Assembly: GCA_027941995.1 (NCBI GenBank)
Contig: CP115967.1
Span: forward strand, 62,001-126,000
Source: Erythrobacteraceae bacterium WH01K
Lineage (GTDB): Bacteria > Pseudomonadota > Alphaproteobacteria > Sphingomonadales > Sphingomonadaceae
Direction of reading: 5' to 3'
DNA: 64,000 nt
Part shown: piece after piece, positions 11,592 through 44,781 of the stretch
Layout: each line of letters starts with the position of its first letter
Numbering within the stretch: position 1 is the stretch's first letter
Made by a program: the position numbers and the translations under genes
Notes under the pieces: model-generated
The model's database searches: none
The model's input: the letters and a program-made list of their open reading frames with translations, nothing else
Told to the model about the DNA's origin: nothing

Positions 11592-13726
11592 CAGAGCATC
11601 GCGATGATGGAATTAATCCGATCGCCGGGGAATGCGGCCAGCATCTCGGCGCGCACCGCGGCAAAGTCGATCTCTCGATCGCGAAAGCGCGCGATTGTAT
11701 CGCGCATCACATCGACCTGAGATTGCAGTACCAGCCCCGACGCAACTTGAACCTTGAGTCGGTACTCGAGAATGCTCGCCATGGTTTCGACGGAGATCGG
11801 CCGATGTGCGCTAAATAGGGCGGACAGGAGATAATTGGGCAGATGCACATCGGGGGTGATTGCCTTGCCGAGAATGATCGCGAACCAGCCCTTGCCGACT
11901 TGCTTCGCCATCGTGAGCACACGCGTTCCATAACGGGCGATGTCACCGGATTCGAGGTCGGCCTTGGCCTGAGCGATGGTTCCTGCGTCAACATAGACGT
12001 CGTTCAGGATGGAGGCCACTGCTGCATTGTTGCCGGCAAGAATGAAGTCCACTTCGAAGGTATGCTGCGCGAAATGCGCGCTCAGCCAGGCATTGTCGTG
12101 GCAGAAAGCGTTGAGCCGAGCCGAACGGGCCGCTCCGGAGGTCTGCGATCCGAGCGCACGGCTCTTCGCCTTGATCTCGGCATCGCTGTCGAGCGGATCG
12201 GGCGTCAGGTCGATAAAGGCCTGGTCGAGGTCCGTGATGATCGCGCAATTTTTGCGAATTCGCATATCGTGGAAAAGGACGGCCACATTCTCGAAGCCTG
12301 TGCTGCGAATATTGATCAGGCTGGTGCCAAGTTCGTCCAGACTCAGACCGAACACCTGCCTTATCAGGATCGGAACGAGAATCTCCTCGGCGTCTCCCTC
12401 GACCAGCAGCACACTTTTGGCAAAGAGCAGATTGCTGCGCACCGCGTCGAGGTATCGCTGGATATTACCGATCTGGCCGGGATCGAGACCGGCAGCGGGT
12501 TGAAAGACTTCGCAAACACCACCGTTTCGTCCGAGGATGTTGATGTTCTCGACATTGCTGACTTCTGAGATGTGAGTCGAATGCGTCGAGTAGATAATCT
12601 GCGTGTCGTCATAGTTCAGGCGGTCGAACAGCGTTTTCTGGATATGAGTATGGATGTGCGCCTCGGGCTCCTCGACCACGAGGAAATTGGCAAAAGTCTG
12701 TTTGACCTTCTGATATTTAAATTCGAGGAGCTTGAGGGTCAGGTAAATGAGGTTTGCTCCGCCTAGGCTGAGCTCATGGATCGCGCCCTCATATCCGGCT
12801 TCCGATTCGCCGACGAAGAGCTTCAGCGACTGGAAGAGGCGATCGGCTTCATCGGACAGGTCGGACCGGATAGAGAGGGATTTCGGGGAGTAGGTTTCGC
12901 CTGCTGCATCAGTGATTGTTTCGCGGATATCGGCGCGGATCGCGCCTACGTCGTCAAGACCCTCGATCGCATCATTCAGGTTAGACACCAGGTCGCTGAT
13001 CGGAGCAAAGGCAGCGGGGTCGATCTCGCCGCTCTTGCCCTTGAGCAGAGTGAGCAGCGGATTGGTGCGATTGTTCTGGAACTCCGCAACGACGTCGCGG
13101 AGCGCCTGGACGAAGGTGAAGCCGACTTCGCGCGCAATCGAAAACATGCCGGGGACGACCCCGCCAATTTCGGGCGGGGTGAGTTCCTCCGGGAAAGTGA
13201 CTGTATCGAAATCGCCGACAAGCGAACGATAGACATCGGGATCGCAGAAATCAGCGCTGCTTTTGCCGGTGAAGATCGTTTCGTAGTCCGACAGACTGAC
13301 CTCGGCGCGCAGCGCCGCCAAGCCAGCATGATCGCCGACAGCCAGCTCGCCTAGCTTCTGGCGAACTGCAGCTTTCGGACGGAAGATCAGATTATAGGTC
13401 GCCCGATCAACGGTCGCGGCGGCGATGTTGCCGGTAGCGTGGAGGAACAGCGACTGGATCGTTTCATCCTGCGACACATCGGTGAATTCGAGGCTGATGA
13501 TGATCCAGTGACCGCGCCACTCGGCGATACCGCGATGGAAGTCGCGTTCATCGAGACGGTAGGCCATGCGGAGCAGGTTCTCATCGAGAAGCAGCCGGAT
13601 CGCCCGAAACAGGTTTGTCTTGCCGGACCCGTTCTCGCCGATGATCGTGTTGACGCCCTTTTCAAACTTCACCGTCGCAGCGGCAAAGTTTCGGTAATTG
13701 ACCATCTGGAGTTTCGATATGTGCAT
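11591..13726 (-). CDS. gajA: Gabija GajA-like OLD-family ATPase/TOPRIM nuclease
   Basis: A 711-residue OLD-type protein. The N-terminal ABC-like ATPase has Walker A GENGSGKT (30-37), a signature-like LSLGGANLIYL near 320, Walker B FLVVEEPEAH near 352 and STHS after it. A TOPRIM nuclease follows, with VEGDAEE near 442 and TDLDQ near 500 as metal-binding acids. GajA forms a tetrameric nuclease that is released from inhibition when phage depletes nucleotides. It is longer than the best-studied GajA (about 580 residues), mainly through inserts between the ATPase halves and a C-terminal extension. It is second in an operon after a DnaQ-like exonuclease, with a 30-base gap. Confidence 0.85.
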   Translation of the reverse strand: MHISKLQMVNYRNFAAATVKFEKGVNTIIGENGSGKTNLFRAIRLLLDENLLRMAYRLDERDFHRGIAEWRGHWIIISLEFTDVSQDETIQSLFLHATGNIAAATVDRATYNLIFRPKAAVRQKLGELAVGDHAGLAALRAEVSLSDYETIFTGKSSADFCDPDVYRSLVGDFDTVTFPEELTPPEIGGVVPGMFSIAREVGFTFVQALRDVVAEFQNNRTNPLLTLLKGKSGEIDPAAFAPISDLVSNLNDAIEGLDDVGAIRADIRETITDAAGETYSPKSLSIRSDLSDEADRLFQSLKLFVGESEAGYEGAIHELSLGGANLIYLTLKLLEFKYQKVKQTFANFLVVEEPEAHIHTHIQKTLFDRLNYDDTQIIYSTHSTHISEVSNVENINILGRNGGVCEVFQPAAGLDPGQIGNIQRYLDAVRSNLLFAKSVLLVEGDAEEILVPILIRQVFGLSLDELGTSLINIRSTGFENVAVLFHDMRIRKNCAIITDLDQAFIDLTPDPLDSDAEIKAKSRALGSQTSGAARSARLNAFCHDNAWLSAHFAQHTFEVDFILAGNNAAVASILNDVYVDAGTIAQAKADLESGDIARYGTRVLTMAKQVGKGWFAIILGKAITPDVHLPNYLLSALFSAHRPISVETMASILEYRLKVQVASGLVLQSQVDVMRDTIARFRDREIDFAAVRAEMLAAFPGDRINSIIAML

Positions 13727-14848: not shown

Positions 14849-15133
14849 CTACTCCGCGTCGCCCGTCCAATCGTCGTAGTCGTCGGGGAGATGGCTCAGA
14901 TCTTCAGGTGGCTTCGCGAATGTTTCCCATTCTTCCGCCGTCATCATGTCGGTCCGGATGCTTTTCTGCAGTTGGTTGTTCCAGTCGGGAATGGCGGAGA
15001 TGCGAACCAACATCACCTCGACCTTGCCCTTGTCGTAGATTTCGAACGTCCGCGTCTTCGCCAGTTCGACATAATTGCCAAGATCCTGCGCCAGCTCGTC
15101 GACCGAGATGCGGAAACATGCATGTGGTTTCAT
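14849..15133 (-). CDS. Phd/YefM-like small protein, module 1
   Basis: A 94-residue acidic protein starting MKPHACFRISVDEL. The segment NYVELAKTRTFEIYDKGKVEVMLVR has the pattern of Phd/YefM antitoxin N-terminal domains (a helix, then a strand ending in a hydrophobic VMLV). No toxin gene follows. A second copy of identical length lies at 43270-43554, again beside a DUF1403 gene and a tyrosine recombinase, so it belongs to a conserved three-gene module. It could be an antitoxin-like regulator of the module. Confidence 0.6.
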   Translation of the reverse strand: MKPHACFRISVDELAQDLGNYVELAKTRTFEIYDKGKVEVMLVRISAIPDWNNQLQKSIRTDMMTAEEWETFAKPPEDLSHLPDDYDDWTGDAE

Positions 15134-15262
15134 GGAGTTAGAACCTTTCGATTGCGTACAACAATCCCGCCGACCGCGGAGCCGCGTGGGCGATGCAGTC
15201 GGGCAGGCAAAAGGCTCGTGCCGAGAGTGATAGCCGATCGGGAGCGGAAGGAAAGCCCCGCT
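15134..15262. other. conserved noncoding block, module 1
   Basis: About 130 bases between the Phd-like and DUF1403 genes are conserved with 43555-43684 in module 2, including AACCTTTCGATTG, GACCGCGGAGCCG and GTGATAGCCGATC. The copies differ at scattered sites without a codon pattern. It is the 5' region of the Phd-like gene. A long structured leader, a small RNA or a recombination site are all possible. Confidence 0.5.
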
Positions 15263-15265
15263 CCG

Positions 15266-16168
15266 TTAGCGCTCAAGCTGGCGCATCAGGTAACCGGCAC
15301 CGGCCGGCGTGGCGTTCACCGCGATCGCGAGCTTGTTGCGTGTCAGCGACGGCAGAGCGACCCGCAGCTCGGCCGCATCGACCAAGCGGCTGCGCGCGGT
15401 CCGCCGATATCGCTCATGCAACCGCGACATTTCTCGCTCCATGCGATCGAGCGAGCGAGCAGCAAGCGGCGCCTGACTGAACAGGCACTCGGCAAGCAGG
15501 TCACGCCATTCCGCGAACGACGAGCACAGAAATTTGTGCCGGGGGACGAGCGAGGGAAGCAGGTTCGCGCTGAGTCCCGAGCGCTGTAGCAGTGTCGGTA
15601 CCATTATCATCACCAGCCAGGCACGGAGATGGTCGTGGCCGAAGGAGATGGTGCGCCCGTCGGGGAGAGTCGCAACCAGCTCGGAATGATCCGCGGCGCG
15701 GCGAACCAACCGCGCCATCTGGGCAAGCCTACCCGAGATTGACGTCAGCGATGGCTCGAGCCCAGGCTCATCCGTAATCTTGCGGAGACCGCGCCACAGC
15801 GGGCCGTAATGGACGAGGTCGGCACCCGACCAGGTCGACGCCTCGGCTTCAGCGTCGAACAAGCCTTGCAGCAACCGACGAACCTGGCGATCGCGCCCGG
15901 CGGACGCGGGCGCAAGGCTGGCGAAGAAGAAATGGACGATTGCCGCCACTCCAAGCGGATCATTCAGCCCCTCGCTCGCGCGCGGCGGTGAACCCGACCC
16001 AGCGACCCACGCCTCGATTGCGTTTGCATCGGTCGGCACTCCCGCGTTGCACGCGGTGATCGCCGCGCCTTCGAAACGCGCACGGATGCTCCAGGCCGTG
16101 CGCGCCGGACTGTGGGTCAGGCGCCCGTCGAGCCGTCCGAGGGCGAGGAGAGGGTCTAGGCGTTCCAT
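15266..16168 (-). CDS. DUF1403 family protein, module 1
   Basis: A 300-residue protein when started at MERLDPLLAL, the start that aligns with the second copy (43713-44615). The longer reading from 16228 has a 20-residue extension absent from copy 2. Recognisable family segments: GLNDPLGVAAIVHFFFASLAP, WSGADLVHYGPLWRGLR, FGHDHLRAWLV and LPSLTRNKLAIAVNATPAGAGYL. Function unknown. It is divergent from the tyrosine recombinase with a palindrome between them, so the two are probably co-regulated. It may act as a recombination accessory protein, which is inference from context. Confidence 0.7.
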   Translation of the reverse strand: MERLDPLLALGRLDGRLTHSPARTAWSIRARFEGAAITACNAGVPTDANAIEAWVAGSGSPPRASEGLNDPLGVAAIVHFFFASLAPASAGRDRQVRRLLQGLFDAEAEASTWSGADLVHYGPLWRGLRKITDEPGLEPSLTSISGRLAQMARLVRRAADHSELVATLPDGRTISFGHDHLRAWLVMIMVPTLLQRSGLSANLLPSLVPRHKFLCSSFAEWRDLLAECLFSQAPLAARSLDRMEREMSRLHERYRRTARSRLVDAAELRVALPSLTRNKLAIAVNATPAGAGYLMRQLER

Positions 16169-16270
16169 ATATATGCGTGGTCGAATATCCAACGATTCTA
16201 GTCGCATATGGATTCCGCAGGAAAGCAAAAAGTGGGTTAGCTTTCGCCCACTCGTACGGTTCGCGAGCGC

Positions 16271-16299
16271 ACATGTGATAAGGGGAACTTATCACATGT
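16271..16299. promoter_or_regulatory. 29-bp palindrome between DUF1403 and recombinase, module 1
   Basis: Perfect 12-bp arms ACATGTGATAAG and CTTATCACATGT flank GGGAA. It lies 37 bases upstream of the recombinase start. The module 2 copy (44716-44744) has AAA/TTT instead of AAG/CTT at the inner arm ends, a paired change that keeps the dyad. Either an operator for the divergent genes or the recombinase core site. Confidence 0.7.
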
Positions 16300-16335
16300 T
16301 GCAAGATCGCCCGTTCTGACTAGTTTTGTGCCGAC

Positions 16336-17538
16336 GTGCCCGACATCGCACCCCCTTCAGCGTCGCCCGGTAGCGCCCTCACCGAGCTGCAAACCGACCT
16401 CGCGATCGCATTGCGCACACCGAACGTCGCCGTCGATCGCGAGCTTCTCGCCGCCTATGTCGAGGCGGCCGCGCCGAACTCGATCCGCGCGCTGCGACAG
16501 GACGTCGAAGCATTCGACCTGTGGTGCCGGCGCAGCGATACCCGCGCGTTCCCCGCGACGCCCGGTATGGTCGCGGACTGGCTGAAGCATCGCGCAAGCG
16601 AGGGCGCCGCGCCCGCCTCGCTGGTTCGGTATAAGGCGTCGATCGCCAAGGCGCACCGGCTACTCGGTCTCGACGATCCGACCAAGCACGAGATCTGCCG
16701 GCTTGCGATCGCTGCGCACCGCCGCAAGGTGGGCTCGCAGCAGAAGCAGGCGCGACCGCTGCGGTTCCGCGGCGCGGTCAAGAATCCGGTGCAGGACACT
16801 CCGCGCGGCATCCATATCCGCGCAATACTAGCCGCCTGTGACGGCACGCCCACGGGCCTCCGCAACCGCGCGCTGCTTTCGGTTGCCTACGACACGGGCC
16901 TGCGCGCGAGCGAACTGGTCACCATCGCGCTCGAGGACATTGTCGAAGCGCTCGACCCCGATGCAAGGCTGCTCCGGATCGGTCGACACAAGGGCGACCA
17001 GGACGGCGAAGGCTCGACCGCCTATCTCTCGCCGCGCAGCGTGGGGGCGCTTGATGCCTGGCTGCGCGCTGCGGACGTCAGCGAGGGTCCGGTGTTCCGA
17101 CGGGTCATCGTGCGGCGTTACGCCGCCCGGCCCGCGCGCAGGCGGATCGATCCAAACACGCTGTCGGGCCGGGCGATCTGGGATCCACGCAGGTTCGCGG
17201 CGAAGGCGGTGGTCGCTGCGCGCACCGAATACCATGTTGGCGAAAAGGCGTTACATCCTGGCTCGGTGACCCCGCTCGTCCGCGGCATGATTACTGCAGC
17301 TATCGATGCCGGCGCGTTCGGCGATCTCGACAAAGAACAGGCGAGGAAATTGGTCGCAGGATTCAGTGCCCATTCGACGCGGGTCGGGTTGAACCAAGAT
17401 CTGTTCGCGATCGGCGAAACGCTCGCCGGGATCATGGATGCGCTGCGGTGGAAGTCGCCAAAGATGCCGCTAGCATACAACCGCAATCTTGCTGCCGAAG
17501 CTGGCGCAGCAGGTCGGCTACTATCGAAGCTAGATTAG
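16336..17538 (+). CDS. tyrosine recombinase, module 1
   Basis: A 400-residue site-specific recombinase starting at GTG, equivalent to the start of the module 2 copy. An N-terminal SAM-like core-binding domain (SIRALRQDVEAFDLWCRR) precedes the catalytic domain: Arg in YDTGLRASEL (about 193), Lys in RHKGD, HxxR in SAHSTRVG (about 353) and Tyr in PLAYNRNL near 385. All catalytic residues are present. These enzymes cut and rejoin DNA through a phosphotyrosine link. It is divergent from a DUF1403 gene with a shared palindrome. Probably the integrase of a small mobile module. Confidence 0.85.
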   Translation: MPDIAPPSASPGSALTELQTDLAIALRTPNVAVDRELLAAYVEAAAPNSIRALRQDVEAFDLWCRRSDTRAFPATPGMVADWLKHRASEGAAPASLVRYKASIAKAHRLLGLDDPTKHEICRLAIAAHRRKVGSQQKQARPLRFRGAVKNPVQDTPRGIHIRAILAACDGTPTGLRNRALLSVAYDTGLRASELVTIALEDIVEALDPDARLLRIGRHKGDQDGEGSTAYLSPRSVGALDAWLRAADVSEGPVFRRVIVRRYAARPARRRIDPNTLSGRAIWDPRRFAAKAVVAARTEYHVGEKALHPGSVTPLVRGMITAAIDAGAFGDLDKEQARKLVAGFSAHSTRVGLNQDLFAIGETLAGIMDALRWKSPKMPLAYNRNLAAEAGAAGRLLSKLD

Positions 17539-24555: not shown

Positions 24556-24979
24556 TTGCCTCCACTGCGCCCGTTTCTGCTCATCGGGAAAAATGCAGCT
24601 CTTTGCGCGACTACCATCTTATGAGGTGACGGGTTTTAGGCCAAGCGGCGTGGGGCTTAATTGTCTAGAGTGGGGTCGTGAACCGAATGGCGGCTATACT
24701 ACATCACCGCGCTGAAAGCCGACAGTCTGCAACCGGCCCAGTTTCTGCATCGATCTGTTACCCGTAAGACGCTCAGCCTGGGGAAGTTCGCGTTAAGTCC
24801 GAACGCAGCTAGGTTCCTCGAATTTTTCGAAGAGCCAGGTGATTAAGACTGATTAAGGCTTGACTGCCAAACCTACATCCCCCCTCTGCTTACCAGTCGT
24901 CATTTTCGAATCTTGATCGTATGCATACGCGATGCGCCTACGACCTACCGATCTTGGGGCTGCGTGATATCCTAGTTGC
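24556..24979. other. gap upstream of Tn7-like operon 1
   Basis: No gene seen in 424 bases. It separates cargo from the TnsE-like gene. Only about 20 bases before the start codon resemble the equivalent position upstream of 52499, so conserved machinery begins close to the ATG. Confidence 0.4.
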
Positions 24980-26776
24980 ATGAGCTTCATTCAGCTGCAG
25001 CGCGAACCGGGCATCCACTACCTCGCCGGGTATCAGAACTTCCGCACGTCGCCGGCTTTCGAACATCTTCTCGAGGCCAAATGCTTGCTCCGAAGCATTA
25101 CGACCGCAGGCGCCGTCGGATCGTCGCTTCACGTACCGCTGTCGGATTTCGCGATGTTCCCGATCGGCACGTTGTTCGGCTCGGGTAAAGCGATGATGCT
25201 GCGCAATCGCGGTCGCCGACGAACCCGCAGAACGATCCTTCTGGGCGACGAAGTCGAGATTTGGGACTTCGAGCGCCCGACCCTCGTCAGTCCGCAGAAG
25301 CACGCCAAACCCTTCGACCTGTCGATCCGCCAAACCGAGAAGGTGTTCATCGACCAGATCGAGGCCCTACACCCCCTCGGTTTGGCCCACGGCGAGCAGT
25401 TCCGGTTCATCTGCTCGGGGGTCAGCTTTCTGCTCGATACGCTTTCGCTGCGCTCCATCGTCTCGCAGAAGAGCCTCGCGGGCATGTTCGTCGACGAGGC
25501 GGAGACCGGAATCGACGAGAACGGTACCTACGTCATCACGCCGTTGCGTCCGTTTCAGAACGCGACCGCGACGCTGCAGATCGCGCTCCTGCTCACCAAT
25601 CCCGACCTAGCGGATTACATCCGTTTCTTCTTCCGGCGGGTCGGTGCGGCGATGCGCGGGGAACCCGCCGGGTCGGAAGGGGCGCTGACGTTCCGGGACG
25701 CCATGGACTGCACGATCGAAACCGAGCCGCTCGCGATCGGCCCGCCAGGAAACGAAAGAGCGGTCGACTATTGCGACCGGATCATCGCCGACCACCGCAA
25801 GCCGAATTTCAGGGATATCGTCGTCCGCATCCGCAATACGCGGGCGGACGAGCAGATCGAGCTGATCGAGGAGCTCCGCACCGAGGCGGAGCGAGAGAAG
25901 CTCAGGGTAGCGTCGAGCACCAAGGTCAAACGCTACCCGGCGGACAAGCGCACCGTTCGCCTTGGCCGCCTGGACGGCGATTTCGGGCGGCTGTTCCCCG
26001 AGTTCGCTAAGCTTGCCATGCGCTTCGATCGGCAAACCGTCCCCGCCGCGGAAGGCGATAGCCGACCGTCAAGGTTCGATCCTCAAAAGGATCGTCCCGA
26101 ATTCGTAACGCCGATCGTGTCGTCGGGGCTACCCGAACCCGGCGGCAAGGTCCCCCGGGCGGAGAGCGGGCCGGTCGAGACCGTCGTCTTTGAACGCCCG
26201 AGCCTGCCGACCCGGTTCCTCGCTACGAGCGATGCGCCGGGCCTCGAAGCGCGGATCGCGAAGCTCGACGACGTGCCGCTCTTGATGCGCGAGTTCTTCC
26301 TCGCGGGCTACTATATGACCGAGCATCGCTCGGCGACGAGCCTGCCGGAATACGATCTCGGACGCGGCGAAGAAGTGCTCTATCGGCTCCCACCGTCATG
26401 GGGTGGGTTCGCCGCGCCCGACGCGAAAGGTCTCACCCGCTTTGCGGCCGCCGTCCCGCTCGCCTTCGACCACGGCATAGTGTGGGCCATCGAGATCCTC
26501 AGGAACGATGCCAGCGAGGCGTTCGCCATGGGGCTCGTCGCGCAGTTCGACCGCGACGACGGGCTGAGCTTTCTTGGCCGGGCGCTGCGCAGCGTCTGCG
26601 ATCGCGTCGGTCGGCGGCGCGGCGACGATCCATCGGGCACCTTCCCGCGCGCCGACTTCCTCGACACGCGGATCGACACCGTCGTCCACAAGAAGACCGT
26701 CTGGGACGCGAGGACGCTGGCGCAGGTCATCCCGGCACGGGCCGAATTGCTCCTGTCGACCGAGCGGAACTTCTAG
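24980..26776 (+). CDS. TnsE-like protein of Tn7-like element 1 (598 residues)
   Basis: A 598-residue protein with a same-length copy at 52499-54295. By eye the middle resembles Tn7 TnsE: a helical stretch FRFICSGVSFLLDTLSLRS and the following ITPLRPFQNATATLQIALLL with TNPDLADYIRFFFRR correspond in pattern to the TnsE segment before its DNA-binding C-terminal domain. The last 160 residues (WGGFAAPDAKGL, FDHGIVWAIEILRND, DDGLSFLGRALRSV) would be the C-terminal domain. It is convergent with tniQ and the stop codons share CTAG. TnsE steers Tn7 to replicating or conjugating DNA. Length and context fit; homology is inferred. Confidence 0.5.
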   Translation: MSFIQLQREPGIHYLAGYQNFRTSPAFEHLLEAKCLLRSITTAGAVGSSLHVPLSDFAMFPIGTLFGSGKAMMLRNRGRRRTRRTILLGDEVEIWDFERPTLVSPQKHAKPFDLSIRQTEKVFIDQIEALHPLGLAHGEQFRFICSGVSFLLDTLSLRSIVSQKSLAGMFVDEAETGIDENGTYVITPLRPFQNATATLQIALLLTNPDLADYIRFFFRRVGAAMRGEPAGSEGALTFRDAMDCTIETEPLAIGPPGNERAVDYCDRIIADHRKPNFRDIVVRIRNTRADEQIELIEELRTEAEREKLRVASSTKVKRYPADKRTVRLGRLDGDFGRLFPEFAKLAMRFDRQTVPAAEGDSRPSRFDPQKDRPEFVTPIVSSGLPEPGGKVPRAESGPVETVVFERPSLPTRFLATSDAPGLEARIAKLDDVPLLMREFFLAGYYMTEHRSATSLPEYDLGRGEEVLYRLPPSWGGFAAPDAKGLTRFAAAVPLAFDHGIVWAIEILRNDASEAFAMGLVAQFDRDDGLSFLGRALRSVCDRVGRRRGDDPSGTFPRADFLDTRIDTVVHKKTVWDARTLAQVIPARAELLLSTERNF

Positions 26777-27750
26777 CGCGCGTTCGAGGAACCGGGGCGA
26801 AGATAGGTGTCGAGAACGTGGCGCAGCGCGAAGGGTGTCTGGACGCCCGGCTCCTCCGGCACGATCCAGCTTGCCCAGGCGCGCGCCTCGCCGCACGGAC
26901 CGACGAGGCCGAACGGCCATCCCCGCAGCAGCCGGCTGACCCCGCGCATCACGCCGTGCGCAGCGCTGACGGTCATGGACCGGATACTGGGGTTCGCAGT
27001 CCTGTAGTCGAGGTCGATCTCCCCGATCGAAGGATGCAGCGCTTCGCGGACGCGCTTGCCCCAGCGTTTGGCAGCGATCGCTCGGAAGAGCGCCAGCTGG
27101 ATAGCGAAGAAGGCGATCGGATGGATCCCGTGCAGATGGGGCCAAGCCACCGCGCGTCCGTCTAACACCGCTTCGTTATGCGCCTGCAGGACGAGCACGC
27201 TCGGAGCGGCGATGGACGCGGAAAGGGCGGAAAGGTCGAGGCCGCACCCGTCGCAATGGCGGAAGCCCGAGCGGTGTGGCTGGTATGGGGCATCGCAGTC
27301 CGGGCAGGCGTCCATCAGCACGGCGGCGTGCTTCGTGCATGCTGGAAAGAGCCGCAGCCGCCAGGTCAGCGGCAAATAGGGGGTGTCGTCGGCGAGGCAA
27401 TGTGGACAGAAGGCCTGCCCGTGCGCCTTGCGGAACCGGTGGCGCACGCCGAGTGGCACCACCATGAACGACTGGTTGGCGCCGGAGATGGATTCGGCGA
27501 GAACGCCTTCGTAGGCGCCGAGCGTCGTGCGCCGGCAACGCTCGAGCGGTGTTCCCGTCTTCACCGCCAGAGCTCGGACGAGCTCCGGCGATGCGACGAG
27601 ATCGCCATCCCTGGTCCAGAACTCGAGGCCGGGCGCGAGTTCCTTCATCAGCGAGTGGTGCTTGGTACCCTTTGCCGCGGCAATGCGGATCAGCCAGGAG
27701 CTGACCGATTCCCGTGGCAATGGGCTTGGACGGATATGCCAGCGGCTCAC
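26773..27750 (-). CDS. tniQ: TniQ/TnsD-family target-selection protein, element 1
   Basis: A 325-residue protein starting at the GTG that overlaps the tnsC stop (GTGA), an arrangement also present in copy 2. N-terminal WHIRPSPLPRESVSSWLIRIA is the TniQ signature. Two zinc knuckles follow: FCPHCLADDTPYLPLTWRLRLFPACTKH and CPDCDAPYQPHRSGFRHCDGCG. TniQ/TnsD proteins recruit TnsC to the target site. At this length it resembles short TniQ forms rather than long sequence-specific TnsD. Fourth gene of the tnsBC-tniQ operon. Confidence 0.85.
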   Translation of the reverse strand: MSRWHIRPSPLPRESVSSWLIRIAAAKGTKHHSLMKELAPGLEFWTRDGDLVASPELVRALAVKTGTPLERCRRTTLGAYEGVLAESISGANQSFMVVPLGVRHRFRKAHGQAFCPHCLADDTPYLPLTWRLRLFPACTKHAAVLMDACPDCDAPYQPHRSGFRHCDGCGLDLSALSASIAAPSVLVLQAHNEAVLDGRAVAWPHLHGIHPIAFFAIQLALFRAIAAKRWGKRVREALHPSIGEIDLDYRTANPSIRSMTVSAAHGVMRGVSRLLRGWPFGLVGPCGEARAWASWIVPEEPGVQTPFALRHVLDTYLRPGSSNAR

Positions 27751-28670
27751 GCCGGTTCGCATTCCCTGGACGTCTTCACTTCGAGCCGATCGATGACGTC
27801 GCAGGCGCGCTCGGAAAGCGGTACCCACGCCATGTCCTCGAGGGTCTTCGCGTCGATCACCTCGCGGCCGCTTTGGATGGCCATACGCGCCGCGAGAAGC
27901 ATCACCCGCCGGATATGGCCGATGACGTGATCTCCCTTCTCGAGGATGGTCTCGACGAGCTTGGGATCAGCCACGACATGCGACGTCTTGCGCAGCGGCA
28001 GACGCACCTCGATGTTATGGATCAACACGTTCGCCTCGTCGCCACGGTTCCACGGCGGCAGCGCGATCTGCTCGAAGCGACGCTGGAGTTGCGGATCGTC
28101 GTTCAGGATATCGACGCCCGGCGGCGTCCCGAACAGGGCGACACCGCACCCGCAATCCTCGCCGATCGACTTCACCATGTTCTTGAGCGCCTCGCGGTTG
28201 CGATGGGTCCCGTTGGCGAGATCCTGGAACTCGTCGATGATGAGCAGCCTCGTTCGCATCGTCCTCAGAACTGCGTAGGCCATGGAGGTGAGATGCGAGG
28301 TCGACCATCGCAGATTGAAGGGCTCCGCGACGTAGCGCAGGATGCGGATCGCAAACTCGCGAACCGACGCTTCGCCCGGCATTGAGACCCGCACCACATC
28401 GGCGCGGTCCGCATCGCCCGTTATGCCGGTCTGTACCGGATGCAGCGACGCGAAATGCTTCGAGATGGTGCTCTTGCCGTTGTAGCTGCGCCCGAACACT
28501 GCGATGCTGTGCTCGTGCGGCTCGGGAGCCTCGAGGATCGCCCGAAGGCGATCCTCGATTTCCATCATGCGCGGATGGTGGATGGTCTGCGGCTCGGCGA
28601 GGTAGGCGAGCCGGGTGGCATCGTCCGCGAGGCGCAGGTCGTCGAGGGATGTGGTGTTGTTGCAGGTCAT
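27747..28670 (-). CDS. tnsC: TnsC/TniB AAA+ regulator, element 1
   Basis: A 307-residue AAA+ ATPase starting at the ATG that overlaps the tnsB stop by four bases. Walker A is FGRSYNGKST (near 65-72), Walker B LLIIDEFQDL, sensor region VALFGTPPGVDIL, and the arginine-rich LQRRFEQI block follows. TnsC polymerises on DNA with ATP and links target selectors to the transposase. The open frame runs much further upstream but the upstream part is tnsB in another frame. It is closely similar to 55266-56192. Confidence 0.9.
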   Translation of the reverse strand: MTCNNTTSLDDLRLADDATRLAYLAEPQTIHHPRMMEIEDRLRAILEAPEPHEHSIAVFGRSYNGKSTISKHFASLHPVQTGITGDADRADVVRVSMPGEASVREFAIRILRYVAEPFNLRWSTSHLTSMAYAVLRTMRTRLLIIDEFQDLANGTHRNREALKNMVKSIGEDCGCGVALFGTPPGVDILNDDPQLQRRFEQIALPPWNRGDEANVLIHNIEVRLPLRKTSHVVADPKLVETILEKGDHVIGHIRRVMLLAARMAIQSGREVIDAKTLEDMAWVPLSERACDVIDRLEVKTSRECEPA

Positions 28671-30430
28671 TGGACGGCTCCACTGGAGGGAAGGATGGTG
28701 ATGCTGGCGGGGTCGATCCTGACGACCGGGACCGGCGGAAGAGGCGACTGCTCGGGCGCCGGCAACCGGTTTCGGCCACGCTCGCGCTTCACCGCGTTCT
28801 GTGCGATCTTGCGCTGCTTCGCCCGGTCGAGCTTGGACCTCGGGTTCACGACCTTGGCGTGGCGGGCGGCTTCGGCGCGCTCCTTCTCGATGATGCCGAG
28901 AATGCCCGTCGCCGTCACCCGGCCGCGTTTCCTGAGCTTGGCCTTGAAGTCGGCCCGCGCCCGTTCCCACTCGGCGACGGTGATCGCTTGGTCCTCGGTG
29001 AGCGCGTCGCGAAGCTCGATGTAGCGACCGTTGCGAGGGTCCTCGACAAACGCGCGGCTGACGTCGGCGGGGTCGCGTTTGACGTTGAGCATCGTCCCCT
29101 TGGCGGCGTTTAGAAGGGGCTGGAGCTCGCGCGCGGTGTAGCTGAGGTAGCTGACGCGGAACCCGTACTTCTCGAGCTTGCGCTTTTCGGTCTTCAGAAA
29201 GTCGAGATAGAAGGCCTGCGGATCGTCGACGCGCCGGGGATCGCCATATTGCGCGACCCCCAGGTTCCACTTCTCCGCCGGCGTCATCCCCAGCGTCGGA
29301 TGGATGCGGTACGGGTATTCGCCCACGAAGTACCGCACCATCGCCTCGAGGTATTCATCGAGCGTCAGGCTCGCGGTCTCGGTGGGATCAATGCGATCTT
29401 TCTCCCGCCTTGTGGAGCTGAAGATGGTGTTGCCCGGCAGCTTGCGGGTCTGCGTCATCGCGGTGCCGATCATCCGCTCGACGATCCCGCCGTGATGCGG
29501 CTGCGAGCGGTGCGAGAGGTCGATCCGCCACTTGCCGCACCCCCGGTGGAAGGACTTTGACGTGAAGTCGACGCCGCGGTCGACGAAGATTGCCGAGGGT
29601 ACGCCGAACCACGGCCAGTCGATCCCCTCGATGCCTTTGGCGGCGAGCCAGCCATCCTTGGGCAGGCAGGCGATCGCCATGGCCTCGGCCAGTTCCTCGA
29701 CGCTCGGATAACCGAACGTCACGTGGATACCCAGGGGCAGGCGCGAGAACTCGTCGACCACCATGGTGAAGGTTGGGCGACCGAGCGAGATCCACAGCTC
29801 CTCTGAGATGAGGTGCACGTCACTGTAGGTGTGGTCGATCTGCACCCGCTCGAGCGGATAGGTGCAGAGCGGGGTCGAACCCTTGTCGCGGTCGTACTTG
29901 TCCGCGGCCGCCTGCGCGCCGTTCTTGTGCGCGTAGCGGACGCGCACGTCGAGCGATTCCCAGCGGCGCCTGATGGTCCGATCGGACGGCGGCTCGATAC
30001 CCGCCTTCGCGCAGGCCTTCTGCACGTTGTCGATGTAGACCGTGACCTGCTGGCCCCTGTAGCGGCGCTGTTTCAGGAACTTCTTGAGCTCGCCCTCGAC
30101 GATTTCCTCGACCGCCGGATCGAGCTTGGAATGCCAGGCGCGCTTGGTCGGGACCTTGAAGAGCGCCATGGCGTGCCCAGCGTCCTCGTAGGCCTTGAGC
30201 TTGCGATAGAACTTGGAGGTCGACCATTCGAGCATGCGAGCGGCTTTCTTCGCGTTCTCGCGGGTGCGAGCACCGCGACGAAACGCGTCGATGACGTCGG
30301 CCTCGAAGCTAGTGCGCTGCCAGTCGGCGTCACTGATCGTTTCGACAGTGATCTGGTGATCAGGACCGACAGTCGTGACCTGGAGGACGTCCTTCGCCAA
30401 GGCGGGGGTGGTCTTCTTACGATTAGACAT
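28667..30430 (-). CDS. tnsB: TnsB/TniA DDE transposase, element 1
   Basis: A 587-residue Mu/Tn7-type transposase. Start at MSNRKKT, 10-11 bases after a GGAG that is conserved before copy 2; the longer reading from 30505 is not conserved. N-terminal HTH domains lead into the rve catalytic core: Asp in VQIDHTYSD (near 193), Asp in IFVDRGVDF (near 282), Glu in GGIVERMIG 34 residues later. The basic C-terminus (KRERGRNR) and the final segment contact TnsC in relatives. All catalytic residues are intact, so the element could be active. Confidence 0.92.
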   Translation of the reverse strand: MSNRKKTTPALAKDVLQVTTVGPDHQITVETISDADWQRTSFEADVIDAFRRGARTRENAKKAARMLEWSTSKFYRKLKAYEDAGHAMALFKVPTKRAWHSKLDPAVEEIVEGELKKFLKQRRYRGQQVTVYIDNVQKACAKAGIEPPSDRTIRRRWESLDVRVRYAHKNGAQAAADKYDRDKGSTPLCTYPLERVQIDHTYSDVHLISEELWISLGRPTFTMVVDEFSRLPLGIHVTFGYPSVEELAEAMAIACLPKDGWLAAKGIEGIDWPWFGVPSAIFVDRGVDFTSKSFHRGCGKWRIDLSHRSQPHHGGIVERMIGTAMTQTRKLPGNTIFSSTRREKDRIDPTETASLTLDEYLEAMVRYFVGEYPYRIHPTLGMTPAEKWNLGVAQYGDPRRVDDPQAFYLDFLKTEKRKLEKYGFRVSYLSYTARELQPLLNAAKGTMLNVKRDPADVSRAFVEDPRNGRYIELRDALTEDQAITVAEWERARADFKAKLRKRGRVTATGILGIIEKERAEAARHAKVVNPRSKLDRAKQRKIAQNAVKRERGRNRLPAPEQSPLPPVPVVRIDPASITILPSSGAVQ

Positions 30431-30567
30431 TTGAATGTACTCCTTCTTTTGAGAACGGAGCACGAGCCGGAAAAAGGGCGCACGCGACCGGCGCCAGGCG
30501 CGCAATGGCGCTTGACTTGGGGCCGCTTTTCGGGGATGACGAGGGTGCTTGGGGTCCTAGTATCCCG

Positions 30568-30599
30568 AAAAGGCCTGGCTCCTCGGAGCCGGGCTTTTT
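30568..30599 (-). terminator. bidirectional intrinsic terminator, element 1
   Basis: Stem GCCTGGCTCC with GGAGCCGGGC, A-run on one side and T-run on the other. It lies between the small HTH gene and tnsB, so it would stop transcripts of the HTH gene before tnsB. The same hairpin is kept at 58090-58121. Confidence 0.7.
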
Positions 30600-30641
30600 C
30601 CATTTCGTGCTGATCAAATTCAGTTGTTTGGCACGAGCTGT

Positions 30642-30887
30642 CTACATACACTTCTCCTCATCGATCGCGCGCAGCCACTCGGCCACGTCTTGGGTGAAGG
30701 CGAACGTTCCGCTCCGGTCCGGTAGCTTGAAAACGTGGACGCCGAGGCGTCCTCGCTGTTTGGCCTTGCGAAAGGCAGCCGCGCTCGGAAATCCGAGGGA
30801 TTTCCACAGTGCCCCGCCGGTCAGAAACGGTCCCGATCCGTCGACCAGGTGTTCCGCCAGCTTGGTACCGGACGCCTTCGAAGCCAT
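30642..30887 (-). CDS. small excisionase-like DNA-binding protein, element 1
   Basis: An 81-residue protein starting MASKASGT, the start shared with copy 2; a longer reading to 30959 is not conserved. The pattern LTGGALWKSLGFPSAAAFRKAKQRGRLGVHVFKL, then TFAFTQDVAEWL, looks like a small winged-helix or MerR/Xis-type fold. It is divergent from the unknown gene at 31014 and upstream of the transposase operon with a terminator between. Probably a regulator or architectural protein of the element; the function is inferred. Confidence 0.6.
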   Translation of the reverse strand: MASKASGTKLAEHLVDGSGPFLTGGALWKSLGFPSAAAFRKAKQRGRLGVHVFKLPDRSGTFAFTQDVAEWLRAIDEEKCM

Positions 30888-31013
30888 ATTCACGCTAGTC
30901 CTTTTCGGGTCGGAGAATCGCCAGTTGGCATGCATGTCACGCTCGTTACGCTTGTCCAAACGACGTAATTGGGGCCAAATTTGTCGCCTGATCGAACTGC
31001 GAGTCGAAGAGCG

Positions 31014-31793
31014 ATGGAGTATCGGAAGAGAGCGAAGACCGAATGGACCCTGACCCGGTGGGTCATGGCCTGCGTCGACTTCCGCGCGACGCCCGAAGAC
31101 GCAGAATGGATCAGAAACGAGCTCAATTGCAGCAAGGATACATTACGGCACTATCGCCTGGGCGAGCGTCGCATCCGATGCGATGTGCAGGCCTCCGTTC
31201 TCGATCGGTTGGACGGACGCTTTCCCGGAACCGCTGCGATGCTTCGCGGACCGATGGCGCAGATCCTGATGCGCCGTGAACTAGGGCCGGGCGGTTTGAG
31301 GGCAGCGATCAGGCAGCTGTCAGATCCCTGCCGCACACTTCTGCTTATGCTCGGTTACGGCTCGGATCGGGGCGAGATCGATCCCGCCGTCCGGCTCGAA
31401 GAGACGCTCAATTACCTGCTGCGATACAGCGCTTTCGAGACGCTCGAGGCCATCGTCTTCATGCTCGCGTGGTGCGACGAGATCGGCGATGAAGCTTCGT
31501 GGACGACGATTTGCTGTCGGTATCGTGCGGCGCTCCCGAACATGCTGTTCGAGGGCATTCCGGAACACCACCACCCTCTGCTCGACGCGATCGACGATTA
31601 TGCTCGAACCATAGAGTTTCGCTACGCGCGGCGGGTCCGATCGAAGCGCAGCTGGCGCACGGCCATCCCGAAGGCCAGGAAAATCCGGAAGCAGGGCGCG
31701 ATTGCTGTCCAGCAGCATTGGGAGGCCTGTCCCAAAGAGGTAACCTTCCGCATCAATCCGCCATCCGAGGACACGATGAGAACTAGCTCCTGA
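31014..31793 (+). CDS. conserved element-associated protein of unknown function, element 1
   Basis: A 259-residue protein from MEYRKRAKTEW, the start that matches copy 2. The N-terminal portion (TEWTLTRWVMACVDFRATPEDAEWIRNEL, then LRHYRLGERRIRCD) is basic and helical and could bind DNA. The rest is helical with paired Trp and Cys (MLAWCDEIGDEASWTTICCRY). Family not recognised. It lies between the small HTH gene and tnsA, reads opposite to both, and is kept at the same place in element 2, where it is broken by a stop codon. Confidence 0.65.
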   Translation: MEYRKRAKTEWTLTRWVMACVDFRATPEDAEWIRNELNCSKDTLRHYRLGERRIRCDVQASVLDRLDGRFPGTAAMLRGPMAQILMRRELGPGGLRAAIRQLSDPCRTLLLMLGYGSDRGEIDPAVRLEETLNYLLRYSAFETLEAIVFMLAWCDEIGDEASWTTICCRYRAALPNMLFEGIPEHHHPLLDAIDDYARTIEFRYARRVRSKRSWRTAIPKARKIRKQGAIAVQQHWEACPKEVTFRINPPSEDTMRTSS

Positions 31794-31819
31794 AGGCAGG
31801 AAATTCGGCTCCGTACTGG

Positions 31820-32545
31820 TTACCGTAGAAAGACCCTACGGCGCGGTCCGCGGCTTAGAATGGCGTCCTCGTCCCATTCGCGCGTGATATCGAACCAGAG
31901 TTCATCAATAGCACACGCATGCAGCGCCGCCGAAATGATCTCGCTCCTCACATGGCCAAGCCGCTCGACGTTCGCGATCACCGATCCGAGCTTCGCAGGA
32001 AACTCGCCGAGCCTGCCCGACAGTATGAGGTCGAGCAACGAGGGGGCCGGCTTGTGCGCTGCGCGGTCCAGGATTGCTTTTGCATTCGGCAGGCCCTTCT
32101 CGATCAGCTTCTCGTCGGTCACTAGGAGGAACGAGCAGTCCGTCTGTTCGCGGCACCAGCGCATCATCGCGACGTGCGCGCGGCCAGCGGCAGACGCGCT
32201 TCCTGCCGCCGCGATGCGATCGGCTTCGCGGCGCTCCTTCACCTCGACGATGTAGCGGTAGCGCCGGTCCTCGCGATCGTTGATCTCGACGAGATAATCG
32301 GGCGTATAGACCCGTGTCCGTTCGTCGATGAGATCGCGGAATTCGATGGAGAAAGGCTCCCACGCGATGTGCCGCACCTCGTTCGCGAAATCGCAAAGTT
32401 GGACGAATCCACGCTCGATCGAGGACTGGAAGGCGACCCTATTCGCGCCGTTTCGGAAGCTGTAGAAGCCGGTTTCCGCGCTGGTGCGCGCGGGTTTTCT
32501 GCTCCGCGCAGAAGGAGTTATCCGTACGTGGTCAACTAGTCTCAC
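31820..32545 (-). CDS. tnsA: TnsA-like endonuclease, element 1
   Basis: A 241-residue protein with a PD-(D/E)xK fold like Tn7 TnsA. The catalytic Glu is in SSIERGFVQLCDF, the Asp in VYTPDYLVEI, and Glu-x-Lys in YIVEVKERRE. TnsA cuts the 5' ends of the transposon so that, with TnsB, the element excises fully (cut-and-paste). The start is GTG inside an inverted repeat shared with copy 2. It is 274 bases from the small HTH gene's ORF across the divergent unknown gene, not in one operon with tnsB. Confidence 0.85.
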   Translation of the reverse strand: MRLVDHVRITPSARSRKPARTSAETGFYSFRNGANRVAFQSSIERGFVQLCDFANEVRHIAWEPFSIEFRDLIDERTRVYTPDYLVEINDREDRRYRYIVEVKERREADRIAAAGSASAAGRAHVAMMRWCREQTDCSFLLVTDEKLIEKGLPNAKAILDRAAHKPAPSLLDLILSGRLGEFPAKLGSVIANVERLGHVRSEIISAALHACAIDELWFDITREWDEDAILSRGPRRRVFLR

Positions 32546-32559
32546 CGACTATGACCACG
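32527..32559. promoter_or_regulatory. inverted repeat across the tnsA start, element 1
   Basis: Arms CGTGGTCA and TGACCACG are 17 bases apart and straddle the tnsA start codon. Element 2 has the same arrangement with one arm mismatch (60047-60079). Likely an operator or a transposase-binding site used for autoregulation. Confidence 0.5.
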
Positions 32560-32658
32560 CCGATTTCGAGCCGGCGAAATGGACACGCCGTCTCACAAAA
32601 GGGTTCGAATCGGGGCAAATTGCACCCGGTTGAGTCGCACCATTTGTGGAAGTTATCA
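32560..32658. mobile_element. right end of Tn7-like element 1
   Basis: About 100 bases between tnsA and the point where similarity to element 2 stops. Read inward, the terminus is TGATAACTTCC followed by TGCGACTCA, GGG and TGAGAC words; the same order occurs at 60178 inward (TGATAATTTCC, TGCGACTCA, TTGAGAC). The terminal TGATAA supplies the stop codon of the interrupted nuclease gene, which fixes the boundary near 32658. Confidence 0.65.
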
Positions 32659-32991
32659 AGCGCGGACCATCTGGTCGCCAATCGATCCCCGTGAATTCGT
32701 GACAATCGCGAGCGTCCGACCATAGCGATCGGTATCTTGGCGAATGATGTTGTAGCGCTCCGAATTCAAAAGGGTCACCAGCCTATCCCTTGCACGCACC
32801 GCTAGCCGACGCTCGCTTTCGCAGGCGCCGTCGAGTTCTGGTGTATCGATGTCGGCGATACGTATCCGTTCGCGCGCCACGATGAAGCTGTCGCCATCGT
32901 GGACGCATGTGATCCGCACCCCTGAGGGAGGACAGACCCCGATAGGAGAGCTCGCTGCCAGGATGGCGAGAAGAAAGCTCACCGCTCGCAT
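32656..32991 (-). pseudogene. thermonuclease-like gene, 3' end cut off by element 1
   Basis: The 111 residues left have a signal peptide (MRAVSFLLAILAASSPIG) and the core of the staphylococcal-nuclease fold: VHDGDSFIV, IRIADIDTPELDG and DRYGRTLAIV with the catalytic Asp, Glu and Arg. The family normally continues after LVRAG with about 15-25 residues ending near a Cys; here the frame stops right after MVRA because the element terminus follows. It overlaps the excalibur gene by 13 bases, so both belonged to one operon. Activity of the shortened protein is uncertain. Confidence 0.75.
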
Positions 32992-33629: not shown

Positions 33630-35426
33630 ATGAGTATCGAAACTATCGCACCGCTGAAACGGTGCGCAATATACACCCGAAAGAGCACCAATCGGCGTCT
33701 TGAGCACGACGTCAATTCGCTGGTCACGCAGCGCGAAATCAGCAGCGCATACATTACGAGCCAACAATATAAGGGCTGGGTGGAGCTACCGAACCGATAC
33801 GACGATGGCGGTCATTCGGGGAGCGGAATGGATCGCCCTGCCCTCTCGCAGCTCATGCAGGATATCGAAGCAGGAGAGATCGATGTTGTCGTCGTCTACA
33901 AAATCGATAGGCTGACGCGCAGTCTCGCGGACTTCGTTCGGATGATCGAGATCTTCGATCGCCGCAACATCGCGCTGGTCCCCATCTCACAGGCTTTCGA
34001 CACGTCCGACAGCATGGGCCGGATGATCCTAAACGTGCTGCTCACGTTCTCGCAATTCGAGCGCGAGCTTATCGCGGAGAGAGTGCGCGACAGCATTCGC
34101 ACCCGCAAGCGGCACGGCAAGATGCATGGTGGCCTGCCGCCATTTGGCTACATTGCTACGCCTGACGGTCTCAAGATTGACGAGCCCGAAGCTGAGATCG
34201 TCCGGTTCATCTTCGACGAATTCTTGCGGACAAGGCGCTACACAAAGGTCATGACCGCAGTGCGCGAGCGCGGATATTGTAGCTCTATTAAGTACTCGCC
34301 GCGCGGCAAGCCGCGTGGCGGAACTGCGATATCACCGAGCACGGTCTACGCTATCGTCCAGAATCCGATGTATGTCGGAGAAATTCGCGGGCACGATACG
34401 ACCTACCCCGGAGAGCACGAACCGCTCATCTCGCGCGATATCTGGGACGAAGCGCAGATAATTTGCCAGGAACGCAAAAAGCGCAGACCTCACAATCGCG
34501 ACACTGACCACTTCCTTGCCGGCCTGCTTTGGGACGATCTTGGGCGCCATATGCGGCTCGACCTGAAGTGGCATTGGGGCAAGTTCTATAAAACTTACGT
34601 CTCGAGCAACGCCATCTGGTCGCAGAAGCTATTTCTCCGGCAGTATCGTGCGAGCGCCGACCAGCTTGATGAGGTTGTTTTGGCGGCAGTCGCGGCATTC
34701 CTATGCGATCGCATCAAGCTTCGAAAGGCGCTCAAAGGGCTGGGTCTGTTCGGCGAAAACCTGGAAACCTTGGCAGCGAAAGGGCCAGCGGCATCCGACC
34801 GACTGATGGCGACCCCGAAGCCGCATCTGCATGAGCTTTTCAAGGCGATCGCGCATCGTGTGGAGCTCGGTGAGGACCAGGTCTCGATCGAGTTTCGTAT
34901 GCTGGAGGTACAGCGGTATCTCGAATGGAAGAGCGAAATGAGTTTCCGCGGGCGTCCATCAAACTGGTCGTGCAGCGATGCTCGGTATGAGCATATCGTT
35001 GCCGTGCGGGCAGTGACTGCGGAGCGATGGCCCTCCCTGCACATCAATCCGCGACAGACTTCCTGCAAAGGAAAGCCGGACAAGAAGCTTGTCGATCTGG
35101 TTCGAAGCGCGCGAAAAGCCCAGCGGCTCGTGGAAGAGAATCGCGCGCTCGATCTCGATGCTCTAGCCAAGATCCATGGTTGCCGCACCGCGCAATTCAC
35201 CCGTCTGATCCGGCTGAATTATCTGGCTCCTGACATTGTGACGGCGGTTTTCGACGGGACGCAGCCTCCCGGTCTCAACAGGAAAGTCTTACTCAATTCC
35301 AATGTGCCGACCGATTGGGCGGTACAGCGCAAGCTTTATGGCTTTCCAGCGCCCGAGCGCGCCATTGATCCTCGCAACCTCTATGGGCGCGGCATGTGGC
35401 CGAGCGCGAGAATAGAAGCTCCATAG
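33630..35426 (+). CDS. large serine recombinase
   Basis: A 598-residue serine integrase. The N-terminal resolvase domain has the nucleophile in YTRKSTNR (Ser near 19), DDGGHSGSGMDRPAL, VVVYKIDRLTRSL and FSQFERELIAERVRD. A recombinase domain follows (GGLPPFGY, then STVYAIVQNPMYVGEIRG). The usual Cys-rich zinc ribbon is reduced: the loop around FLAGLLWDDLGRHMRL has lost the cysteines, as in some phage and plasmid forms. It could move the island that follows it (35.4-42.8 kb). The attachment sites are not visible. Confidence 0.85.
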   Translation: MSIETIAPLKRCAIYTRKSTNRRLEHDVNSLVTQREISSAYITSQQYKGWVELPNRYDDGGHSGSGMDRPALSQLMQDIEAGEIDVVVVYKIDRLTRSLADFVRMIEIFDRRNIALVPISQAFDTSDSMGRMILNVLLTFSQFERELIAERVRDSIRTRKRHGKMHGGLPPFGYIATPDGLKIDEPEAEIVRFIFDEFLRTRRYTKVMTAVRERGYCSSIKYSPRGKPRGGTAISPSTVYAIVQNPMYVGEIRGHDTTYPGEHEPLISRDIWDEAQIICQERKKRRPHNRDTDHFLAGLLWDDLGRHMRLDLKWHWGKFYKTYVSSNAIWSQKLFLRQYRASADQLDEVVLAAVAAFLCDRIKLRKALKGLGLFGENLETLAAKGPAASDRLMATPKPHLHELFKAIAHRVELGEDQVSIEFRMLEVQRYLEWKSEMSFRGRPSNWSCSDARYEHIVAVRAVTAERWPSLHINPRQTSCKGKPDKKLVDLVRSARKAQRLVEENRALDLDALAKIHGCRTAQFTRLIRLNYLAPDIVTAVFDGTQPPGLNRKVLLNSNVPTDWAVQRKLYGFPAPERAIDPRNLYGRGMWPSARIEAP

Positions 35427-38686: not shown

Positions 38687-39385
38687 GTGAGCGTGGCTGA
38701 CGACATTAAAAAGAATTGTGCCGATACATTCGGCAAGAAGTGGGCCGTACGAGACGGTCAGGTTGTTCCAGACGCAAGCGACCTGAAGCTAACCAACGAC
38801 GCAGTGCGTTTTGAAAAGGCTACCGTCCTCTATGCTGATCTCGACCAGTCTACGGATCTCGTCGAGACGAAGAAATGGCAGTTCGCGGGAGAGATATACA
38901 AGACGTTCCTCTATGCGGCCTCCCGTCTTATCCGAAACCATGGCGGGAAGATTGTCTCATACGACGGTGATAGGGTCATGGGGGTTTTCATAGGAGATAG
39001 ACAGCGAAACGAGGCGGTCTCCTGTGCCTTGAAGATCAACTACGCGGTAAAAAACTACGTCCAAGCAGAGAAAGAAAAGCGTTGGTCTGGTGATTTCAAG
39101 ATCCGCCATGTGATCGGCATCGACGTATCGGAGATACGCGGCGCACGCACAGGTGTTCGCGGCGACAACGACTTGGTATGGATAGGCACCGCTGCAAATC
39201 TCGCTGCCAAGCTTACATCACTTAGCGCAGATCAGCCGACCTGGATCACTAAACGGGTTTACGATTACCTCGATGGTTCGCAGAAGTTTGGGTCCAAAGG
39301 GGAGAATATCTGGACTAGCTGGAAATGGAACCAGCACAACGACGAGGAGATATATTCCTCGACCTATTGGAGGCAGTTCAGTTGA
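38687..39385 (+). CDS. pycC: Pycsar-type nucleotide cyclase (PycC-like)
   Basis: A 232-residue class III cyclase domain with no sensor domain. Metal-binding aspartates are Asp51 (VLYADLDQST) and Asp94 (YDGDRVMGVF), and the block HVIGIDVSEIRGARTGVRGDNDLVWIGTAANLAAKL is typical of Pycsar cyclases. Known PycC enzymes make cCMP or cUMP upon phage infection. It is followed with a four-base overlap by a cyclic-nucleotide-binding TIR-like effector. Start GTG at 38687 with a weak ribosome binding site. Which pyrimidine it uses cannot be told. Confidence 0.85.
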   Translation: MSVADDIKKNCADTFGKKWAVRDGQVVPDASDLKLTNDAVRFEKATVLYADLDQSTDLVETKKWQFAGEIYKTFLYAASRLIRNHGGKIVSYDGDRVMGVFIGDRQRNEAVSCALKINYAVKNYVQAEKEKRWSGDFKIRHVIGIDVSEIRGARTGVRGDNDLVWIGTAANLAAKLTSLSADQPTWITKRVYDYLDGSQKFGSKGENIWTSWKWNQHNDEEIYSSTYWRQFS

Positions 39386-40305: not shown

Positions 40306-40359
40306 GACCTTGCCTGCCCGCCGGTAATCCACGGGATGTGCGCTGAAGGGCTGGAAAGG

Positions 40360-40374
40360 CTAGATAAAATCTAG
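40360..40374. promoter_or_regulatory. inverted repeat upstream of tandem-cyclase gene
   Basis: CTAGAT-AAA-ATCTAG, perfect 6-bp arms, 77 bases before the tandem-cyclase start and 55 bases after the effector stop. It may be an operator for the second operon. Confidence 0.4.
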
Positions 40375-40450
40375 ATGTTCTTCTAACGTTCCATTTCACA
40401 ACAGGTCGCAGCCCTTCGGTGATTCGCGATCATCAAGGAGGCTGCATACG

Positions 40451-43269: not shown

Positions 43270-43554
43270 CTAGATTTCGTCGGGCCAAACATCACCGTTC
43301 TCTTCGATCCACTTTTTGAGCCGCTCCGACTCCGACTGAATTGCCTCCCATTCATCATCAGACATCAATTCCGTCGGTACGTTGATTTGCAGCTGACGAT
43401 GCCATTCGGGCACCGCTTCCATCCGGACAAGCATGACCTCGACCTTGCCCCGATCGTAGATCTCAAACGTCCGCGTCTTGGCGAGTTCGGCGTATTTGGC
43501 AAAATCCTGCGCGACCTCGTCGACCGAGACACGAAAACATGCATGTGGTTTCAT
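43270..43554 (-). CDS. Phd/YefM-like small protein, module 2
   Basis: A 94-residue protein from MKPHACFRVSVDEV, the same length and start as module 1 (14849-15133). The N-terminal 65 residues are almost the same (KYAELAKTRTFEIYDRGKVEVMLVR), while the acidic C-terminus has diverged (KKWIEENGDVWPDEI). A divergent tail on a conserved N-terminus is the pattern of Phd-type antitoxins whose tail contacts a partner. No partner toxin gene is next to it. Confidence 0.6.
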   Translation of the reverse strand: MKPHACFRVSVDEVAQDFAKYAELAKTRTFEIYDRGKVEVMLVRMEAVPEWHRQLQINVPTELMSDDEWEAIQSESERLKKWIEENGDVWPDEI

Positions 43555-43684: not shown

Positions 43685-43712
43685 CTGAGGCCCAGCATAA
43701 TTCTGCGCGGTG

Positions 43713-44744: not shown

Positions 44745-44781
44745 TGCAGAGACGCCTGCTTTGGCTAGTCTGAAGCCTGAA

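Follow-up and report, generated by a model that had tools for sequence, protein, structure and literature searches.

Introduction

Target selection by two pathways in Tn7 provides the model for the mechanism considered here (PMC5371812, PMC11406308). According to the second of these sources, TnsE homologues are almost universal in glmS- and comM-targeting elements, and it describes TnsE outside prototypic Tn7 as lacking mechanistic information, with an unknown mode of TnsC recruitment. In Tn7, tnsE and tnsD share one strand, tnsE being the downstream gene, and TnsE (538 amino acids in plasmid R721; PDB 5D16, 5D17, 9D5L) serves as the reference for a fold of two SSB-like domains and a C-terminal domain. 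In Tn6022, which targets comM, the TnsE gene is on the opposite strand, and its product is less than 10% identical to Tn7 TnsE (Faure et al. 2023, PMC10293859). A candidate for this branch is WP_001144971.1, a protein of 595 amino acids without a Pfam match from the A. pittii plasmid pApiAE13c, which we infer to be a Tn6022-branch TnsE from its place, strand and length. Profiles of its family and of Tn7 TnsE matched with P=0.0035 in one alignment, in support of this assignment, but with P=0.22 in another. The Tn6022-type protein had no match in any of 398 phylum genomes scanned.

We analysed a stretch of 64,000 nucleotides from Erythrobacteraceae bacterium WH01K (the window), which corresponds to positions 62001–126000 of a 172,502-bp contig; the genome also has a 2,745,896-bp contig. 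The window contains two Tn7-like elements, A and B, each coding for a protein of 598 amino acids that an earlier note had proposed to be a divergent TnsE, and both homology and context support this proposal. The protein resembles the Tn6022-type TnsE in its length (598 vs. 595 amino acids), its position on the strand opposite to the tns operon, its comM-targeting Tn7-like carrier and the absence of a PF18623 match, whereas its gene is placed tail-to-tail with tniQ and the Tn6022-type tnsE lies far from tniQ, near the left end. The transposons differ as well, since those of the Tn6022 type have tnsF, coding for an inactive tyrosine-recombinase fold, in the operon after tniQ, where elements A and B have the convergent 598-residue gene and no recognised TnsF. 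Elements A and B are therefore relatives of Tn6022, but not Tn6022 itself.

Two Tn7-like elements with a conserved 598-residue protein

Self-comparison of the window revealed two sets of collinear repeats, 24965–32658 with 52483–60178 (75.7%) and 15008–17536 with 43428–45982 (77%). The 598-residue genes are located inside Tn7-like elements with TnsA, TniA, TniB and TniQ, which share the same orientation on the contig and comprise the following genes.

24980–26776, + strand: 598-residue TnsE-like protein, element A (ORF translation, profile comparison with TnsE)
26773–27828, − strand: TniQ, element A, 351 amino acids (Pfam TniQ, E=1.3e-23)
27747–28673, − strand: TniB (TnsC-like ATPase), element A (Pfam TniB, E=1.4e-55 for the extended ORF 27747–29270; start from homology with element B)
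28667–30505, start approximate, − strand: TniA (TnsB-like transposase), element A (Pfam Mu-transpos_C, E=2.2e-7)
31820–32545, − strand: TnsA-like endonuclease, element A, 241 amino acids (Pfam Tn7_TnsA-like_N, E=1e-7)
52499–54295, + strand: 598-residue TnsE-like protein, element B (homology with the element A copy)
54292–55347, − strand: TniQ, element B (Pfam TniQ, E=4.4e-23)
55266–56192, − strand: TniB, element B (Pfam)
56189–57967, − strand: TniA, element B (Pfam)
59340–60065, − strand: TnsA-like endonuclease, element B (Pfam)

The two 598-residue proteins are 75% identical over 598 columns without a single gap, and in both elements the stop of the gene overlaps the opposite-strand tniQ by 4 nt, tail-to-tail. 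The equal length and the convergence with tniQ that the earlier note had reported are thus confirmed, and the peptides it cited occur in the translation of 24980–26776. Because the dN/dS value between the A and B copies (0.127) is close to those of tniQ (0.157) and tnsA (0.170), the ORF is a real gene, and it is under purifying selection. Matches to the protein were obtained in 5 of 397 family genomes, three of which were judged to be real, namely its own genome with two copies, G207 and G320. The other two (loci L006 and L007) were judged to be chance matches falling over other genes, and a match at L038 was dismissed, as it overlies a tyrosine integrase. Viral scans yielded nothing useful. 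A third ORF of 598 amino acids in the window (33630–35426) codes for a serine recombinase and is unrelated to the TnsE-like pair.

Several other segments are of note. Between TniA and TnsA, an interval of about 1.3 kb (30505–31820) is conserved among A, B and G207, and the two plus-strand ORFs scanned there in element A matched no Pfam family. The same three also share a tyrosine recombinase gene (PF00589) with a divergent gene for a protein of 320 or 300 amino acids (15266–17538 and 43713–45984). The recombinase, encoded about 7.4 kb from the tniQ region, appears catalytically intact when inspected by eye, with the catalytic R, HxxR and Y all present; its neighbour belongs to no Pfam family, apart from one weak DinB_2 match below the cut-off for the B copy. 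This pair could be involved in resolution or in comM recognition. Defence-type cargo is present as well: element A includes a UvrD helicase gene adjoining one for an OLD-type nuclease (9801–13726), which we take to be a Gabija-like pair, and left of the conserved block of element B a gene for a cNMP-binding TIR protein adjoins a cyclase gene in a Pycsar-like arrangement (39325–42043). A gene for a UmuC-type polymerase (60276–61556) begins about 100 bp beyond the right end of element B, and a TnsE-like gene of A. junii lies about 10 kb from umuD/umuC.

Element boundaries and insertion of relatives in comM

The ends were recognised by comparison with two elements inserted in comM, those of G207 and of Erythrobacter sp. 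HI0063 (G1122). Both genomes have a split comM and share the left end TGTCAAAAGCCTCGG, and the insertions are accompanied by 5-bp duplications (GGCGG in G207, GAAGC in HI0063), as in Tn6022-type transposons; element A itself is on a plasmid with AGCGC. All four elements (A, B, G207 and HI0063) have a right end that reads TGATAA inward, beyond which their DNA differs.

2654–2673, + strand: left end of element A, TGTCAAAAGCCTCGGAAAAC (common to G207 and HI0063; preceded by AGCGC at 2649–2653)
32634–32658, − strand: right end of element A, inward TGATAACTTCC (end comparison; followed by AGCGC at 32659–32663)
60154–60178, − strand: right end of element B, inward TGATAATTTCC (end comparison)

The window contains a single occurrence of the left-end sequence, at 2654 (up to 3 mismatches; 0.01 occurrences expected), and with AGCGC on each flank element A therefore extends from 2654 to 32658 (30,005 bp). 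A left end near 14.8 kb had been assumed before, and the search for inverted ends on that assumption failed; the left end of element B was not found.

Comparing element A with G207, the segment 24721–28020, which contains the 598-residue gene, tniQ and the end of tniB, is 98.3–100% identical per 300-nt bin, while the remaining tnsC/B/A region shows 74–94% identity. One recombination tract suffices to explain this step, which shows that the 598-residue gene and tniQ can be exchanged together and does not imply that they always are.

The chromosomal comM gene of the genome under study is also split (G000 contig 1, about 15631–54851, L060–L062), at a different point and with its halves about 39 kb apart. 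Its insert begins with an apparent serine recombinase gene, so comM appears to have been struck by another kind of element too.

Similarity of the 598-residue protein to TnsE

Direct searches with the 598-residue proteins gave no matches in Pfam, NCBIfam, PADLOC or the PDB sequences. The Pfam profile TnsE_C (PF18623) did not match the protein at E≤10 (Tn7 TnsE: 6.7e-54), and it is therefore not assigned to the classical Tn7 TnsE subfamily. BLAST found nothing significant against either Tn7 TnsE (R721) or the Tn6022-type TnsE; a weak hint (E=1.3) paired residues 150–220 of one of the two proteins (P0003, the other being P0001) with residues 130–204 of TnsE, so that the middle section singled out by the earlier note aligns with the TnsE stretch it had meant. 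An 8-protein profile found nothing in the PDB, and an AlphaFold prediction from the two-sequence alignment resulted in a pLDDT of 28.3 and a pTM of 0.18, a poor model which we attribute to too few sequences. Because the accepted Tn6022-type TnsE also misses Pfam and differs strongly from that of Tn7, the negative direct searches are not decisive.

Additional TnsE-like proteins were obtained from related elements. TnsA matches (E≤1e-5) occurred in 6 of 397 family genomes (its own, G207, G160, G164, G017 and G340), the last four of which contain genes for TnsA, TniA, TniB and a TniQ- or TnsD-like protein in a row. In G160 and G164, a gene for a 559-residue protein is located tail-to-tail with tniQ with an identical 4-nt overlap, and G017 and G340 contain no gene of this type overlapping tniQ. 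The 559- and 598-residue proteins share this genetic setting without any direct similarity in BLAST. Against a profile of Tn7- and Tn6022-type TnsEs the 559-residue protein ranked 1 of 184, and against Tn7 TnsE 1 of 94 (local mode), above every control. It also led to a 596-residue protein in G1012 (L080, 8394–10184), around whose gene no Tn7-type gene was detected within 19 kb, and to a weak match with another ORF (L081, 9756–12005). When held out, the 559- and 596-residue proteins match TnsE profiles.

We then compared the 598-residue proteins with a wide TnsE profile of 13 proteins (seven Tn7-type, three Tn6022-type, two of 559 and one of 596 amino acids), from which they had been left out themselves. 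The comparison set (n=242) consisted of P0001, P0003, 138 unrelated ORFs of 420–800 amino acids (231 before filtering), 100 shuffled sequences and two reversed copies. P0003 ranked first over 208 columns and P0001 third, separated by a UvrD-type ORF that aligned over 31 columns only; in several tests one unrelated ORF scored above one or both 598-residue proteins, over about 31 columns. With three other alignments the pair took ranks 1 and 3, 2 and 3, and 2 and 4 of 142. The profile comparison proposed in the earlier note was negative against Tn7 TnsE alone (P=0.11, no rank signal) and became positive once the divergent TnsE branches were included.

Leaving out the Tn6022-type, 559- and 596-residue families in turn, with 70 decoys each, P0003 reached z values of 5.1, 2.7 and 3.6 (0, 1 and 1 decoys above it) and P0001 values of 2.9, 4.4 and 2.2 (0, 1 and 2 decoys above), compared to 5.0 and 7.2 for held-out, accepted Tn6022-type TnsEs. 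All 12 best alignments of the 598-residue proteins lay within 3% of the collinear position, while decoys within 5% of it numbered 18, 11 and 14 of 138 and 12, 10 and 12 of 70. Taken together, the two proteins also matched the C-terminal domain of TnsE (P=2.5e-4; 0.031 with the tool-default alignment). When the profile was restricted to Tn7- and Tn6022-type TnsEs, they came 5th and 9th of 184 in local mode; no signal for them was obtained in the 'global' mode of hhalign, whose scores were set aside because they mostly reflected short alignments.

In the wide profile, the 598-residue proteins are in register with the middle region and the C-terminal DNA-binding domain of Tn7 TnsE, to which they show no direct sequence signal. 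The block PQLELARSLF of Tn7 TnsE, presumably its clamp-binding motif, is aligned with DTLSL, and its Q is not retained. Profile similarity to the broadly defined TnsE superfamily is therefore present, albeit weak, dependent on the alignment and dependent on the bridge formed by the 559- and 596-residue proteins. Judging from these comparisons, homology of the 598-residue protein to TnsE is quite probable.

Role of the 598-residue protein and alternative readings

Placed in its genetic context, the 598-residue protein is likely to be a divergent TnsE in the wide sense, which includes the Tn6022 type, and the second target selector of a comM-homing, Tn7-like family of sphingomonads. We also lean towards a TnsE-like function, with less assurance than for the ancestry.

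The alternative that fares best is a target selector with no relation to TnsE, such as a comM reader for TniQ analogous to TnsF, which would stand beside tniQ by function and not by TnsE ancestry. It draws on the lack of a tnsF-like gene after tniQ, on the insertion of relatives in comM, on the joint exchange of the 598-residue gene and tniQ between A and G207, and on the short TniQ, as short TniQs are usually partnered according to PMC10293859. We nevertheless consider it unlikely, because the match to TnsE is in register at two separate regions and because both copies in the window reside on a plasmid with F-type conjugation genes, with remnants on Croceicoccus plasmids. Moreover, comM of G340 (L068, 9700–16500) is interrupted at nearly the same place by a small TnsA-TniA-TniB-TniQ element, which encodes a Sul1-type dihydropteroate synthase and lacks a TnsE-like gene; this indicates that the 598-residue protein is not required for comM.

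That the gene is instead cargo or an accessory (for defence or regulation) lying beside tniQ by chance, as the abundant defence-type cargo of the elements and the lack of an assigned family might suggest, is very improbable, since the exact 4-nt overlap is kept in A and B while their cargo at 17.6–24.7 kb differs, and in two other elements that very position is occupied by a different gene, for the 559-residue protein.

Plasmid setting

Judged by its gene content, the 172,502-bp contig is a plasmid with F-type conjugation genes, as it codes for a TrwB/TraD-type coupling protein, a TrwC relaxase, homologues of TraG, TraH, TraN, TraC and TrbI, and RepA_C. Searches for the VirB4 family matched on the chromosome only and those for the PF03432 relaxase not at all; both missed the transfer genes of the plasmid because these are F-type. 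Among 72,556 plasmid records, two, both from Croceicoccus marinus, contained broken copies of the element. The occurrence of the family both in chromosomal comM and on plasmids is what a Tn7-like element with two pathways is expected to show. The spread by plasmids suggested in the earlier note is supported by circumstantial evidence, as both elements reside on a plasmid that carries F-type transfer genes. An element akin to that of G340 is present on the conjugative Sphingomonas plasmid pISP1 without TnsE, so plasmid residence alone does not demand TnsE.

Discussion

Taking the 598-residue protein as a divergent TnsE, its mode of action may be envisaged by analogy with Tn7. The TniQ pathway would insert the element into a fixed chromosomal site, comM, and the TnsE-like protein may recognise lagging-strand or conjugal replication structures and recruit TnsC with TnsA/TnsB, by which the element would be directed onto plasmids in transfer. 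On balance, we favour the view that the 598-, 559- and 596-residue proteins are the first members seen of at least one unrecognised alphaproteobacterial TnsE branch, the first two being locked tail-to-tail with tniQ, and that the pair represents an exchangeable two-selector cassette, with comM targeted via TniQ and F-type conjugative plasmids via the new TnsE. As far as the literature searched is concerned, a sphingomonad TnsE branch below Pfam recognition and tied to tniQ by a 4-nt overlap is new.

If this is true, TnsE-type selectors are under-counted in Tn7-like elements, and the highly diverged sequences would be useful for pinpointing the residues that matter. A tniQ/TnsE pair coupled by a 4-nt gene overlap would become available, and there would be an explanation for the arrival of defence-gene cargo on the conjugative plasmids of marine sphingomonads.
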